Source: Gemmatimonadota bacterium (GTDB lineage Bacteria > 4572-55 > J002). From it: DNA of 11,433 bases. The notes beneath the pieces are model-generated. The model ran no database searches. It saw only the letters and a list, made by a program, of their open reading frames with translations, and was not told the DNA's origin. Location: NCBI GenBank assembly GCA_003697105.1, contig RFFQ01000055.1:1-11433 (forward strand), in the 5' to 3' direction. The translations under genes and the position numbers were made by a program. Positions within the stretch are counted from its first letter, which is position 1. Every line of letters begins with the position of its first letter. Below, piece after piece: positions 5,679 through 11,433 of this stretch.

Positions 5679-7154
5679 ATGAGTTACCAAAAGTTACCGT
5701 ATAATCAGTCGTTAGCCTTACTCACAGACCTATATGAACTCACGATGGCGTACGGGTTCTGGAAAACCGGTACCGGGGAGCGAGAGTCTGTGTTTCATCT
5801 TTTTTTCCGCAAAAATCCGTTTGGTGGGGGATACGCCCTTGCGTGCGGGCTTGCCACGATCATCGATTATCTGGAGAATTTCACCTTTGATGAAAGTGAT
5901 CTCGCATATCTAAGTTCACTCAGCGGAAATGACGGCAAACCGCTATTTGATCCTGCCTTTTTAGAGTATCTCAAACGGATGGAGTTCCGGTGTGATGTTG
6001 ATGCCGTTCCCGAAGGGACGGTTGTGTTCCCCAACGAACCGTTGGTACGGGTACAAGGTCCGGTCATTCAATGCCAAATTTTAGAAAGTGCCCTACTCAA
6101 TGCGATCAATTTTGAGACGTTGATTGCAACCAAAGCCGCCCGTATTTGCTATGCGGCAAATGGGGAACCGGTACTGGAATTTGGCTTACGCCGGGCACAG
6201 GGGTTTGATGGAGGGTTGGGTGCTAGCCGGTCTGCTTATATTGGGGGCTGTGCGGCAACTTCCAACGTGATGGCGGGTAAACTGTTCGGTATCCCTGTTA
6301 AAGGGACACACGCCCACAGTTGGGTGATGCTGTTTGATTCCGAGATTGAGGCGTTTGAGGCGTATGCGGACGCGATGCCGAACAACTGCGTTTTTTTGGT
6401 CGATACCTACAATACCCTGGAGGGTGTCAAACACGCGATTGAAGTTGGGAAAAAATTGCGGGAACGTGGCTATGAAATGGTGGGAGTCCGGCTCGACTCC
6501 GGGGATTTAGCGTACCTTAGCATCCAAGCGCGGGAACTCCTCGATGCCGCCGGATTTACCGGCGCAACTATCGTGGCGAGTAACGATCTGGATGAGATCA
6601 TCATTGACAGCCTCAAGGACCAAGGGGCAAAAATTACCGTGTGGGGCGTCGGTACAAAGTTAGCAACTGCCTACAACCAGCCCGCTTTAGGAGGCGTGTA
6701 CAAACTTGCCGCCGTGCGCCATGCCGGTGGGGAATGGGAGTACAAGGTTAAGCTCTCCGAACAGCAAGTTAAAATCTCTAACCCGGGGCGACAGCAAGTC
6801 CGGCGCTATTTCAACTCAGTGGAAAATATCGCCGATATGATTTACAATCTGGATGCCCCGCCTCGCTCGGACGCGGTCATTGTTGATCAATTTGACATGA
6901 CACGCCGCAAGCACATCCCCCCAGAAACACCGTATCAGGATTTGCTGGTGCCGATCTTCCGGCAAGGTACGCGTATCTATGACCTGCCTTCTATCCATGA
7001 CATTCGCCGGCAGGCTCAAGAAAATCTCAGCCGCTTTCATGCGGGCATCAAACGATTTGTCAATCCGCACCAGTACCCGGTCGGGTTGGAAAAATCACTG
7101 TTTGATCTCAAAACCGAACTCATTTTGAAGGCACGCCACATCAACCACCAGTAG
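5679..7154 (+). CDS. pncB: Nicotinate phosphoribosyltransferase
   Basis: A 491-residue enzyme that condenses nicotinate with PRPP to nicotinate mononucleotide, usually with ATP hydrolysis. It is the committed step of the Preiss-Handler NAD salvage route in the cytosol. Family marks in order: [13 protein letters not shown] at 15-26, [15 protein letters not shown] at 43-57, [13 protein letters not shown] at 167-179, [10 protein letters not shown] at 208-217 with the conserved histidines His211 and His213 (one is the phospho-acceptor), RLDSGDL at 271-277, ASNDLDE at 300-306 and [10 protein letters not shown] at 322-331. The length is normal for the bacterial long form. ATG 5679 has AAAGGAGG five bases upstream. 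It is the first gene of the operon, with nrtR nine bases downstream, and is directly under the palindromic promoter. Confidence 0.96.
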
Positions 7155-7163
7155 AGGTACATT

Positions 7164-7856
7164 ATGCCATTTACATACGAATATCCACGCCCTGCCGTGA
7201 CGGTCGATTGTGTTGTTTTTGGACTTGATACCGAACCACAGCTAAAATTGATGGTCATCCAGCGGGCTCACCCACCGTTTGCCGGCGAGTGGGCGCTACC
7301 CGGCGGGTTTGTGGGTATGGACGAAGATTTGGAAGAAAGCGCCCGTCGCGAGTTGAAGGAAGAAACCGGCATCGACCATATTTTTTTGGAACAACTGTAC
7401 ACCTTTGGTAAACCGGGGCGTGACCCCCGCGGCAGAACCATCACCGTGGCGTATTATGCCCTGATCAATTTAAGCGAGCACCCTGTGACCGCGGCAAGTG
7501 ACGCCCAAGATGCCCGCTGGTTTGAAGTCAATCATTTGCCGAAATTGGCATTCGACCATGATCAAATTGTGGCAACCGCCCTTCAGCGGTTGCGGGGGAA
7601 AGTGCGCTACCAGCCCATCGGGTTCGAGTTACTCCCCCGAAAATTCACCCTGACCCAACTTCAGCAGTTGTATGAAATCATTCTGGAAAAACCGCTGGAT
7701 AAACGCAATTTCCGCCGAAAAATTCTCAAAATGGATATTCTGGTCGCCCTAGAGGAGTATCAAACCGGTGTACCCCACCGCGCGGCGCGGTTGTATCAGT
7801 TTGATGAAAAGAAGTACCAGCAAAAAATTAAAGCGGGTTTCAATTTTGAAATTTAA
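7164..7856 (+). CDS. nrtR: NrtR, Nudix-family transcriptional regulator of NAD metabolism
   Basis: A 230-residue protein with an N-terminal Nudix domain (about 10-145) and a C-terminal winged-helix region (about 150-225; [27 protein letters not shown] is the DNA-binding part). This is the NrtR architecture: a repressor of NAD genes released by ADP-ribose-type ligands. The Nudix signature is complete: Gly48, Glu54, then REL-EE-G with Arg62, Glu63, Glu66, Glu67 and Gly69. Many NrtR proteins have a decayed box, so this one may keep pyrophosphohydrolase activity. ATG 7164 is served by AGAGG, which overlaps the pncB stop codon, so the two are probably translationally coupled. Its place inside the pncB-pncA operon indicates autoregulation. 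A plain ADP-ribose pyrophosphatase is the less likely alternative, because of the C-terminal domain. Confidence 0.92.
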
Positions 7857-7880
7857 ACTTAAAATGGAGGTCAAGTTGAC

Positions 7881-8504
7881 ATGAAAAAAGCACTGATTAT
7901 TGTCGATGTTCAAAATGATTTTTGTCCGGGCGGGGCACTGGCGGTTCAGGAAGGTGATCAGATTATTCCCATTATCAACCGGTTGGCGCAGTCCGGGCAG
8001 TTTGACCGGATAATTGCTACCCAAGATTGGCATCCTGCCAATCACGGTAGTTTTGCCGCCAATCATCCGGGTAAAACACCCGGTGAGCGCATCAAATTAG
8101 GGGGATTAGACCAAATTCTGTGGCCCATTCATTGTGTGCAAGGCAGTCATGGTGCGGATTTCCATCCCGAATTAGACCGGTCTCACGTGGATTGTATCTT
8201 CCAAAAAGGTACCGACCCCCAAATTGATAGTTACAGTGGATTTTATGACAATGGGCGACGGAAATCTACCGGCTTAGCAGAGTATCTGCACGGCGAGGGA
8301 ATCCAACAGGTAGTGGTGGTGGGTTTAGCAACGGATTATTGCGTGAAATTTACGGCGTTGGATGCGCGGCAAGAAGGGTTTGAGACCGTGTTGGTCGAAG
8401 ATGCCGTGCGCGGGGTGAATCTAAATCCAAATGATGTGGAACAGGCAATTCGTGCGATGAAAGCCGCTGGAGTACGTGTGGTATCGAGTGACATGTGGCA
8501 ATGA
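7881..8504 (+). CDS. pncA: Nicotinamidase (possibly also pyrazinamidase)
   Basis: A 207-residue cysteine hydrolase of the isochorismatase fold that deamidates nicotinamide to nicotinate and ammonia, feeding PncB. The catalytic triad is visible: Asp9 in IIVDVQNDF, Lys109 in FQKG and Cys154 in TDYCV. Metal ligands Asp49 and His51 (QDWHPANHGSF) and His84 (WPIHCVQG) match the E. coli-type enzyme. Length and motif order are normal. GGAGG at 7866-7870 lies ten bases before the ATG. The gap to nrtR is 24 bases, so it is the third gene of the operon. The converging gene ends 27 bases beyond its stop, with no clear terminator between them (only a weak CAATGG/CCGTTG hairpin at 8511-8527). Confidence 0.96.
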   Translation: MKKALIIVDVQNDFCPGGALAVQEGDQIIPIINRLAQSGQFDRIIATQDWHPANHGSFAANHPGKTPGERIKLGGLDQILWPIHCVQGSHGADFHPELDRSHVDCIFQKGTDPQIDSYSGFYDNGRRKSTGLAEYLHGEGIQQVVVVGLATDYCVKFTALDARQEGFETVLVEDAVRGVNLNPNDVEQAIRAMKAAGVRVVSSDMWQ

Positions 8505-8531: not shown

Positions 8532-9071
8532 TTATCTTGACCCTGAGTAGCCAAACCGTAGATGTCCATCATGGTGATATTCGATGCACCAGCTATCTTG
8601 TTCATCAAAAATCCAGCAATCCCAGAAATCTTGGGTAACAACCTTGGAAGCCACGGGGATCAGGTCTTGCAAGTTGATTTTCAAATTGGGTGAGAGAAAA
8701 TTTGCCCAGAGAACGGTCACTTGCGGGTTCGCTAATCCTGCCCGTTCACTGACCTGTTTGATAAATTGACCATGATCAAAATTGAAAGTGGTTTCATGAC
8801 GCTCGTACACCTCCCGGGCGAAATTCCAGTCAATACGCCCTCCGGCGTGGAACACAAAATGCTGTTCCAGCCAGAGCTGTGAGGGGTCGGTAGGGTGGGC
8901 GTGTGTTTGGGTTTGCCAGACCTCGATCTGGTAGGGAATCCCTTGTTGGTCGAGTTGGTTCAAAAGCGGTTGTCGCGAAGCGACGATTTTATCATAATCA
9001 ATGGACGTTTGTGCTCGTTCACGAGCTTGACGCCGGCGGATCGCTCGTTCTTGGGGGGTAAGTTCTCGCAT
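8532..9071 (-). CDS. Hypothetical protein of unknown function, tryptophan-rich, cytosolic
   Basis: I do not recognise this 179-residue protein. The first 20 residues are strongly basic and helical (RAIRRRQARERAQ). The rest is a mixed alpha/beta soluble domain rich in aromatic residues, with seven tryptophans including FWDCWIF near 148-154. There is no signal peptide, membrane segment or metal motif, and the C-terminus reads HHDGHLRFGYSGSR. The coding case is good: AAAGGA six bases before ATG 9071, a full-length open frame, and codon use like that of its neighbours. It stands alone, converging on pncA. The upstream leader on its strand contains two hairpins, CGGGCAC/GTGCCCG (9126-9149) and GCGGA/TCCGC closer to the start. 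Their role is unknown. Confidence 0.8.
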   Translation of the reverse strand: MRELTPQERAIRRRQARERAQTSIDYDKIVASRQPLLNQLDQQGIPYQIEVWQTQTHAHPTDPSQLWLEQHFVFHAGGRIDWNFAREVYERHETTFNFDHGQFIKQVSERAGLANPQVTVLWANFLSPNLKINLQDLIPVASKVVTQDFWDCWIFDEQDSWCIEYHHDGHLRFGYSGSR

Positions 9072-9410: not shown

Positions 9411-10451
9411 ATGAAAGCCCAAGATTTTATCCTTAGTGACGCTCTAAAATTTCATCCAGAAGTTGGGAAATTGCTCCTGGGTGATGAGCGAATGCTACTC
9501 TTCCGGCAAGAAGCTTTTACGGTACTTCGTAAACTGTTGTTTGAGCAGTTAGGAGACGACCTCGCCAATGGTTGGTTGTTTCAATTCGGTTACCGGTGCG
9601 GTCATGGTGATTTTGGGGTCCTTTCGACTTTATACGATTGGGATACCGATGCAGACCGGTTAGCTTGTGGTCCCATCATGCACACGTGGGAAGGCATCGT
9701 TCAGGTTGAACCGGTGCAGATGGAATTTGACTTGGGCAGTGGTCACTTCTATTTTCGGGGCATCTGGCGCAACTCGTATGAAGCCGAAATTCATCTAAAA
9801 GAATTTGGTAAAAGTAAGGTACCCACCTGTTTTTCCCTAACCGGTTATGCTTCCGGTTGGTGTAGCGCTTTTATGGGTAAACCGCTGTTAGCGATTGAAA
9901 CCAAATGCATTGGTAAAGGAGATGAGCAATGTGAATGGGAAATTAAGCCGTACGATACATGGGGTCCGGAAGCCGATCTATGGCGCCGCGCCTCTACGGC
10001 TACTGAATCATCATTGACAGAAGACCTCGAAGAAAAGATGAAGGTGATTGAAGAACAGCAAGAGGCCATGCTGGAACTTTCCACACCTGTGATCCAAATC
10101 TGGGAAGGCATCCTGATTTTACCCTTGATTGGCACGATTGACAGCCGCCGGGCGGGGCAGATCATGCAAAACACATTGAATGCGGTCAGCCAACATCGCG
10201 CCAAACAAATCATTATTGACATCACTGGCGTGCCGTTTGTGGATACAGAGGTTGCGAATCACTTGATCAAAACCATTCAAGCGGCAAAATTGGTCGGGGC
10301 AAAATGCATCTTAGTCGGGATTTCCTCCGAAGTGGCGCAAACTCTCGTCCATATCGGCATTGATCTGGAACATCTGGATACCTTCGCCACGTTGGAAGAT
10401 GGCTTGCAAGAAGCCCTTTACCGGATGAAATTTGAAATCTGCCGGGTGTAA
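9411..10451 (+). CDS. Aromatic-sensor (XylR_N/V4R) fused to RsbR-type STAS domain; stressosome sensor
   Basis: A 346-residue two-part protein. Residues about 12-110 resemble the XylR_N sensor module and about 112-180 the V4R domain (TGYASGWCSAFMGKPLLAIE). This combination senses phenols and other aromatics in XylR/DmpR/MopR. Cys140, Glu163, Cys166 and Cys174 have the spacing of the MopR zinc site (23, 3, 8). His91 and Trp119 fall where MopR's phenol-contacting His and Trp would. A charged helical linker (about 200-222) leads to an RsbR-type STAS domain (225-335), with Ser245 in IDS and Thr279 in VDT at the two RsbT phosphorylation positions. There is no AAA+ or DNA-binding domain, so output is presumably to a stressosome. 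ATG 9411 is preferred over TTG 9381 because AAGGAG lies eight bases before it. The next gene shares the STAS domain. Confidence 0.88.
   Translation: MKAQDFILSDALKFHPEVGKLLLGDERMLLFRQEAFTVLRKLLFEQLGDDLANGWLFQFGYRCGHGDFGVLSTLYDWDTDADRLACGPIMHTWEGIVQVEPVQMEFDLGSGHFYFRGIWRNSYEAEIHLKEFGKSKVPTCFSLTGYASGWCSAFMGKPLLAIETKCIGKGDEQCEWEIKPYDTWGPEADLWRRASTATESSLTEDLEEKMKVIEEQQEAMLELSTPVIQIWEGILILPLIGTIDSRRAGQIMQNTLNAVSQHRAKQIIIDITGVPFVDTEVANHLIKTIQAAKLVGAKCILVGISSEVAQTLVHIGIDLEHLDTFATLEDGLQEALYRMKFEICRV
10068..10379 (+). repeat. STAS-coding duplicated segment, copy 1
   Basis: 312 bases aligned without gaps to 11122-11433. I count 30 differing bases (about 90% identity) and five amino-acid changes in 104 codons. 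Upstream of ATG 10068 the two genes are unrelated except for the linker EQQ. Copy 2 is cut by the window edge, so the right boundary is not visible. Confidence 0.93.
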
Positions 10452-10620
10452 TCTAACACCTTTTGCCCTTTGTTAGGGTTTGATAGGCTCACTAACTCCC
10501 TCCGTCTGCCCCCAGAGCCGTCATGGACATCGCCGAAGTGACCGGATCGCCAGAACACATCCCATATTAAAATAGCAACCAACCCAAACTTATAATTATT
10601 GAAAGAAAAGAGGTATGTGC
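10452..10620 (+). promoter_or_regulatory. Spacer before the PAS-STAS gene, with a possible promoter
   Basis: 169 bases separate the two sensor genes. A consensus -10 TATAAT lies at 10591-10596, but the -35 position (about 10568-10573) is poor. A six-pair hairpin CTAACA/TGTTAG (10453-10476) follows the first stop codon and has no T tract. Read-through from the first gene is therefore possible, with an optional second promoter. AAGAGG (10608-10613) is the ribosome binding site. Confidence 0.35.
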
Positions 10621-11433
10621 ATGACCCAATCGGAGCAAAATCAGCTCGAAATGCTCAAAAAGCAACTTAAACAGACCCAACAAAAGCTCCGTGATGTAGA
10701 AAAGAAGTATCAACTTTTATCCGAAGCATCTTTTGAAGGGTTTTTGGTGCATGAACAAGGTGTCATTTTAGAGGCAAACCCGAATATTGCAGCTATGTTG
10801 AGGTGTGACCTCGAAGACCTCCCCGGCTTGAATTTATTGCAAGATGTGGTACACCCCGATTCACTGGAAAAAGCCTTAACCCGCATCAAATCGGGTTCGG
10901 AAGAACCCTATGACCTGAAAGTGTTACGGCGCGATGGCACAACCTTTTTCGCCGAAGTGTGCGCGAAAAATATTGAACTGGAGGGGCGGTCTGTCCGGGT
11001 GCTGGCAGTGCGCGATATTACCGCCCGTAAAAAAATGGAAGATGAACTCCGGCAAGCAAAAGCGAATCTGGAAAAAATGGTGGAAAAACGGACGGCACAA
11101 CTCAAAGAACAACAGGATATTATGCTGGAACTTTCCACACCTGTGATCCAAATTTGGGAAGGCATCCTGATTTTACCTTTGATTGGCACGATTGATAGCC
11201 GGCGGGCGGGGCAAATCATGCAAAATACCTTGGAGGCGATCTCTCATAAACGTGCTAAACAAGTCATCATTGATATCACCGGTGTGCCGTTTGTGGATAC
11301 AGAAGTTGCGAATCACTTAATCAAAACCATTCAAGCGGCAAAATTGGTCGGGGCAAAATGCATTTTGGTCGGGATTTCCTCGGAAGTGGCGCAAACTCTC
11401 GTCCATATCGGTATTGATCTGGAACATCTGGAC
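10621..11433 (+). CDS. PAS-STAS RsbR-type stressosome sensor, 3' truncated by the window edge
   Basis: 271 codons are visible, with no stop before the edge. Residues 1-28 are a charged helix. A PAS domain follows (about 29-135; LLSEASFEGFLVHEQG, then RRDGTTFFAEV, ending with VRDITARKKMEDEL). A coiled-coil linker (136-168) leads to the RsbR-type STAS domain from about 170, with Ser193 (IDS) and Thr227 (VDT) at the RsbT phosphorylation positions. About 40-60 residues of the STAS end are missing, judging from the paralogue at 9411-10451. No ligand can be assigned to the PAS domain. I chose ATG 10621 over the in-frame ATG 10615 because AAGAGG ends seven bases before the former and only one before the latter. 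The gene is probably co-expressed with the preceding one; stressosome partners (RsbS, RsbT) may follow outside the window. Confidence 0.9.
   Translation, partial: MTQSEQNQLEMLKKQLKQTQQKLRDVEKKYQLLSEASFEGFLVHEQGVILEANPNIAAMLRCDLEDLPGLNLLQDVVHPDSLEKALTRIKSGSEEPYDLKVLRRDGTTFFAEVCAKNIELEGRSVRVLAVRDITARKKMEDELRQAKANLEKMVEKRTAQLKEQQDIMLELSTPVIQIWEGILILPLIGTIDSRRAGQIMQNTLEAISHKRAKQVIIDITGVPFVDTEVANHLIKTIQAAKLVGAKCILVGISSEVAQTLVHIGIDLEHLD
11122..11433 (+). repeat. STAS-coding duplicated segment, copy 2 (cut at the edge)
   Basis: The near-identical partner of 10068-10379. The differences cluster around the codons for NTLNAVSQH versus NTLEAISHK. Long stretches on either side, including VPFVDTEVANH and KLVGAKCILVG, differ only at third positions or not at all. 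Confidence 0.93.

Follow-up and report, generated by a model that had tools for sequence, protein, structure and literature searches.

The locus described here raises the question of whether a sensor module of the kind found in MopR, PoxR, and DmpR can serve as the input of a stressosome and, if so, what it may bind. The signals of most stressosomes are unidentified, the known cases being light (YtvA) and oxygen or heme (PMC9237108, PMC4976288). The window, meaning the whole stretch of 11,433 nucleotides that was analyzed, is an entire contig (C122); C45, C22, and C183 are other contigs of the same genome. The gene of interest, V4R-rsbR, probably encodes, judging from its sequence, an RsbR-type co-antagonist subunit of a stressosome that carries an XylR_N/V4R ligand-binding module as its turret.

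Domain Architecture and the Output Half

9411..10451, + strand: V4R-rsbR, 346 amino acids, ATG start and TAA stop; RsbR-type stressosome protein with an XylR_N and V4R sensor
9432..9731, + strand: XylR_N domain, residues 8–107 (Pfam PF06505, E 2.3e-25; alignment with MopR, PoxR, and DmpR)
9681-9683, + strand: codon of pocket residue His91, inside XylR_N
9765..9950, + strand: V4R domain, residues 119–180 (Pfam PF02830, E 1.4e-10), carrying Trp119, Cys140, Glu163, Cys166, and Cys174
9963..10085, + strand: helical linker of the RsbR type, residues 185–225, ...KVIEEQQEAMLELSTPVIQIWEG (linker comparison; helices in the predicted model)
10086..10400, + strand: RsbR-type STAS output domain, residues 226–330 (Pfam PF01740, E 1.1e-18; alignment with 7o0i and 7b0u)

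A ribosome-binding-like site, AGAAGGAGAT, lies immediately 5' of the ATG. The XylR_N, V4R, and STAS matches each exceed their own Pfam cut-off and no fourth domain does so; STAS alone follows the sensor, and an ATPase, AAA+, HTH, or DNA-binding part is absent. The preliminary description had this protein as an XylR_N/V4R module fused to an RsbR-type STAS domain with no ATPase or DNA-binding part, and Pfam and the phmmer searches of the PDB agree with it.

The best PDB matches to the linker and STAS domain are the RsbR proteins of Vibrio (7o0i, E 7e-35) and Listeria (7b0u, E 1.5e-32), both by phmmer. At an offset of 46 to 7o0i, Ser245 and Thr279 occupy the positions of the VvRsbR phosphoacceptors Ser199 and Thr233 (Bs Thr205) and are putative phosphosites. 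The linker motif EEQQ..L.ELSTPVIQ (EEQQ..LELSTPVIQIWEG) is common to the other RsbRs of the genome, and this form of linker is shared with five others. When 47 STAS domains are placed in a tree, the RsbS proteins form a clade of their own (100/99). V4R-RsbR groups with the RsbR proteins, within a five-member RsbR clade drawn entirely from the source genome (96/91), where it is the sister of the PAS-RsbR encoded by the neighboring gene (100/99). The features of an RsbR co-antagonist, namely an RsbR-like STAS domain, both phosphoacceptor positions, and a helical linker, are all present by sequence or model, and the case that V4R-RsbR is a real stressosome RsbR is strong. The source genome encodes at least six RsbR-type proteins: the V4R protein, two with PAS, two whose N-terminal part is long and TPR-like (by eye), and one whose N terminus has no match in Pfam.

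Gene Neighborhood

10615..11433, + strand: second rsbR (PAS-STAS; Pfam PAS_9 and STAS), truncated by the contig end and finished on C45 (L067, 1 to about 168) in a joined reading frame
11340..11433, + strand: contig-end overlap of 94 nt, whose sequence recurs exactly at the start of C45
C45, L067:199-576: rsbS (best PDB match B. subtilis RsbS, 6jhk, E 5.9e-23)
C45, L067:572-958: rsbT, a HATPase/SpoIIAB-like kinase, RsbT-like by blastp, with an ATG that overlaps the end of rsbS

Elsewhere in the genome the terminal 94 nt are matched exactly only at the start of C45, and the copy in V4R-rsbR is a 96% match. On the basis of this overlap C122 appears to continue into C45, from which we infer the gene order V4R-rsbR, PAS-rsbR, rsbS, rsbT. 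As in an rsbRST module, rsbS and rsbT thereby adjoin rsbR across the exact overlap. The preliminary description had looked to rsbS and rsbT beyond position 11433 and had taken a genome devoid of RsbT/RsbS-type partners as evidence against its reading; both genes lie on C45 past the overlap. The C45 kinase compares at 34–48% with the kinases at the RsbT position of other rsb loci, as against 27% with the RsbW-like protein of the genome.

On C45, no RsbX (as in an rsbRSTX locus) or downstream output gene was recognized immediately past rsbT, and a search of the source genome for RsbU_N gave no match. The two rsbR genes are 163 bp apart, with a promoter-like site (TTAAAA-18-TATAAT, 10567-10596) in the gap, and so may be separate transcripts. 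A second core cluster on C22 (L066:6623-8408) comprises rsbS, two successive RsbT-like kinases, a weak RsbX-like phosphatase of the SpoIIE/PP2C type that is sub-threshold (23.6 bits versus 25), and an HD-domain-like ORF (by eye). With two copies of rsbS in the genome, it is uncertain which RsbS goes with a given RsbR.

Origin of the Fusion

10051..10440 (about), + strand: module common to V4R-rsbR and PAS-rsbR (linker and STAS only); the PAS copy runs from 11105

Within this module 95 of 133 codons are identical, the differences being 26 synonymous and 12 non-synonymous, and similarity collapses sharply at both edges. Since V4R-RsbR and PAS-RsbR are alike in linker and STAS only, the sensor seems to have been exchanged at the linker. 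The shared module would be explained by duplication or conversion at the domain level accompanied by such an exchange, with either gene as the possible donor. It is very improbable that the gene is instead an assembly chimera formed by fusing a stand-alone V4R gene to the repeated STAS region. The V4R/STAS boundary does lie close to the start of the repeat at 10051, and the contig end falls within the repeat, but the copies differ in 38 of the 133 codons and their longest exact shared run, 44 nt, is far below the 94-nt overlap between contigs, which makes an artifact unlikely, and the chimera was rejected. It is also at odds with the linker sequence KVIEEQQEAML, which is unlike the PAS copy and similar to another RsbR of the genome, and with the presence of V4R-type-STAS fusions in three other genomes.

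The Sensor Half

Residues 8–195 of V4R-RsbR align without gaps with residues 23–210 of MopR (5kbe) at an offset of +15, residues 10–188 align without gaps with DmpR/CapR (6iy8), and residues 9–188 align with PoxR (5fru) at an offset of +11 with a single gap at the extreme end (all by phmmer). The MopR offset places His91 and Trp119 on His106 and Trp134, which hold the phenol hydroxyl in MopR (PMC10715001), and Cys140, Glu163, Cys166, and Cys174 occupy the MopR zinc-ligand positions, for a predicted Cys-Glu-Cys-Cys site. A constant offset of 15 with this His/Trp correspondence, and the MopR spacing of the four zinc ligands, had both been proposed in the preliminary description; they are borne out by the gapless alignment and, for the former, by the numbering in PMC10715001. 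The zinc residues of DmpR as printed, C151/E172/C177/C185 (PMC7264223), are not accounted for by a single constant offset; C151, C177, and C185 agree with the PoxR offset.

The AlphaFold models, built from alignments of 5–6 sequences, reach a pLDDT of 57 (full length) and 64 (sensor half), which is low, and pocket shape and geometry were not taken from them. In a Foldseek search, the check by structure prediction that had been suggested earlier, the low-pLDDT model of the sensor half falls on PoxR, MopR, and DmpR (E 3e-15 to about 1e-12, TM ~0.67), with the TRAPP/Bet3 and H-NOX folds ranking far below. The full-length model, also of low pLDDT, matches the stressosome RsbR of Listeria and Vibrio and also several RsbS.

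The Ligand Pocket

Nearly all aligned XylR_N/V4R proteins have the zinc ligands and the His/Trp dyad, whether their output is of the sigma-54, histidine-kinase, or PucR type or no output is fused; these residues therefore do not single out phenol and were dropped as specific evidence for it. The nearest sensors are stand-alone XylR_N/V4R proteins, with about 45–49% best-segment identity, and not sigma-54 activators. Among 13 pocket residues of MopR, seven are the same in V4R-RsbR and six are changed (F99L, F132G, Y165W, S166C, Y176A, and I191W). All six changes are common to the stand-alone relatives (Zixiibacteriota, Calditrichaeota, and others), with which V4R-RsbR matches at 12 of the 13 positions.

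That V4R-RsbR is a true sensor of phenol or monoaromatic hydrocarbons like MopR, which would be a special case of the preferred explanation (an RsbR-type stressosome subunit with a V4R ligand-binding turret), is unlikely. A phenol sensor has a His and a Trp to anchor the hydroxyl, and His91 and Trp119 stand at these positions; Pro88, Val97, Val99, Tyr146, and Ala147 are also identical to MopR. However, the shared residues are nearly universal across the family, and the set of pocket residues that stabilizes the aromatic ring is not kept intact: F132G and Y176A take away aromatic walls, and I191W and Y165W add bulk elsewhere. No aromatic-catabolism genes were recognized among the ORFs of the window by eye, and a phenol-hydroxylase family search of the genome is uninformative, since it returned no matches and its control likewise had none anywhere. 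For the direct response to phenol-like or hydrocarbon-derived molecules claimed in the preliminary description, support thus ends at the level of the fold. From the fold, a small hydrophobic or aromatic ligand is a reasonable expectation for the V4R pocket; phenol is only one candidate, and the phenol reading is a hypothesis.

Slightly less probable again is that the V4R module is a structural dimerization turret that binds no ligand, with PAS-RsbR or other paralogues setting the stressosome. The turret of B. subtilis RsbR is a non-heme globin without cofactor residues (PMC4976288), and a V4R-like-STAS protein of Cytobacillus, weakly aligned to XylR_N, is apparently without the zinc residues. 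In V4R-RsbR, in contrast, the four zinc ligands and His91/Trp119 are intact, which together with the close pocket match to the stand-alone relatives suggests that the pocket is under selection. A bolder reading, somewhat less likely than not, is a chemosensory stressosome in which a small aromatic or hydrophobic molecule would be bound directly in the V4R pocket and which would have been made by a sensor swap with PAS-RsbR in an rsbRRST locus.

Distribution of V4R-STAS Proteins

Among 386 genomes from many bacterial families, the XylR_N-V4R-STAS arrangement was found in the source genome only, and V4R-STAS without an XylR_N match in one other genus (G038 and G183), where it belongs to a separate STAS lineage and lies away from rsbS and rsbT. 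A Cytobacillus spongiae plasmid encodes a protein whose annotation names a STAS domain and nothing else; it can be aligned along most of the length (26%) and has apparently lost the zinc residues. This one genus and the degenerate plasmid protein are the yield of the V4R-STAS architecture search that had been called for earlier. No V4R-STAS fusion turned up at E <= 1e-40 among 400 genomes from one RsbR-rich phylum. The fusion searches used a single-protein query and strict cut-offs, by which distant fusions could be missed; V4R-STAS fusions look rare. A pattern scan of the genome collection returned four stand-alone proteins, the patterns having sat in the sensor. A match of residues 126–346 on a Paraburkholderia D15 plasmid is annotated RsbRD_N-STAS and stands in an rsbR-rsbS-rsbT-SpoIIE run; it was kept for reference only. 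In the open-access literature no paper was found that pairs the stressosome with V4R or V4R with a STAS domain, which does not prove absence from print. The sensor type is new for RsbR in that no description of it was found; the underlying system is already known.

Related arrangements were also seen. The source genome has a second V4R protein, stand-alone and of ~179 residues, on C183 (L065:5566-6102). At L139:3120-5306 and L143:1318-2829, histidine kinases carry XylR_N/V4R sensors, and a response-regulator gene comes next in both cases. Other genomes, at L110 (G145) and L108 (G332), have rsbR genes in tandem whose STAS domains are closely similar; the two L110 proteins are of unequal length, so their sensors may differ.

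Comparison with Known Systems and Proposed Mechanism

Like the heme-globin RsbR of Vibrio (7o0i; PMC9237108, PMC4976288), V4R-RsbR has an N-terminal sensor, a helical linker, and STAS, with rsbS and rsbT following, and would place a sensor of the ligand-responsive type outside the Bacillales SigB scheme. It differs in that XylR_N/V4R with a predicted zinc site replaces the heme globin, and the locus differs in having a second (PAS) RsbR in the gene run and no RsbX recognized directly past RsbT. The STAS type, linker, and phosphosite positions are shared with Bacillus and Listeria RsbR and YtvA, whereas the turret fold is different and the SigB-type RsbU_N output domain was not found. The sensor fold, zinc ligands, His/Trp dyad, gapless or near-gapless alignment, and helical linker past the sensor are common to MopR, PoxR, and DmpR, but in place of the AAA+ ATPase and DNA-binding domain of these XylR-family sigma-54 activators there is a STAS output, and MopR differs at the six pocket positions given above. 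The stand-alone XylR_N/V4R proteins (Zixiibacteriota L087, Calditrichaeota L090, and others) have the closest sensor sequences and the same pocket signature but carry no fused output domain. The G038/G183 protein also combines a zinc-motif V4R with an RsbR-type STAS, but it is an orphan of a separate STAS lineage, with no XylR_N match and no rsbS or rsbT beside it.

In the proposed mechanism, V4R-RsbR would dimerize through its sensor and would coassemble through STAS domains with PAS-RsbR and RsbS, holding the kinase RsbT. Entry into the V4R pocket of a small ligand, probably one that is hydrophobic or aromatic, might then shift the C-terminal helix and linker, by analogy with the B-linker of DmpR, in which signaling runs through the linker (PMC7264223). 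The stressosome cycle is described in PMC9237108 and PMC4976288. Because the sensor fold has solved ligand-bound structures, ligand screens, RsbT kinase assays, and mutants of His91/Trp119 and of the zinc site can be designed at this point, and this may be one of the few stressosomes with a chemical signal open to direct testing. Adjoining RsbRs with a common linker and STAS but different sensors raise the possibility that stressosomes gain inputs by linker swap.

Other Features of the Window

Positions 5679-8504 hold, consecutively, nicotinate phosphoribosyltransferase-like, NrtR-like Nudix regulator, and nicotinamidase-like ORFs (by eye), an NAD salvage cluster that lies just upstream of a convergent ORF at 8532-9071. 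An ORF at 1226-2908 resembles glycoside hydrolase family 18 (chitinase) and has a sorting-type domain at its C terminus (by eye). At the contig start, a HypE-like ORF begins with a PASS/PPAS low-complexity repeat (3-180), which may be repeat DNA or a truncated N-terminal extension.
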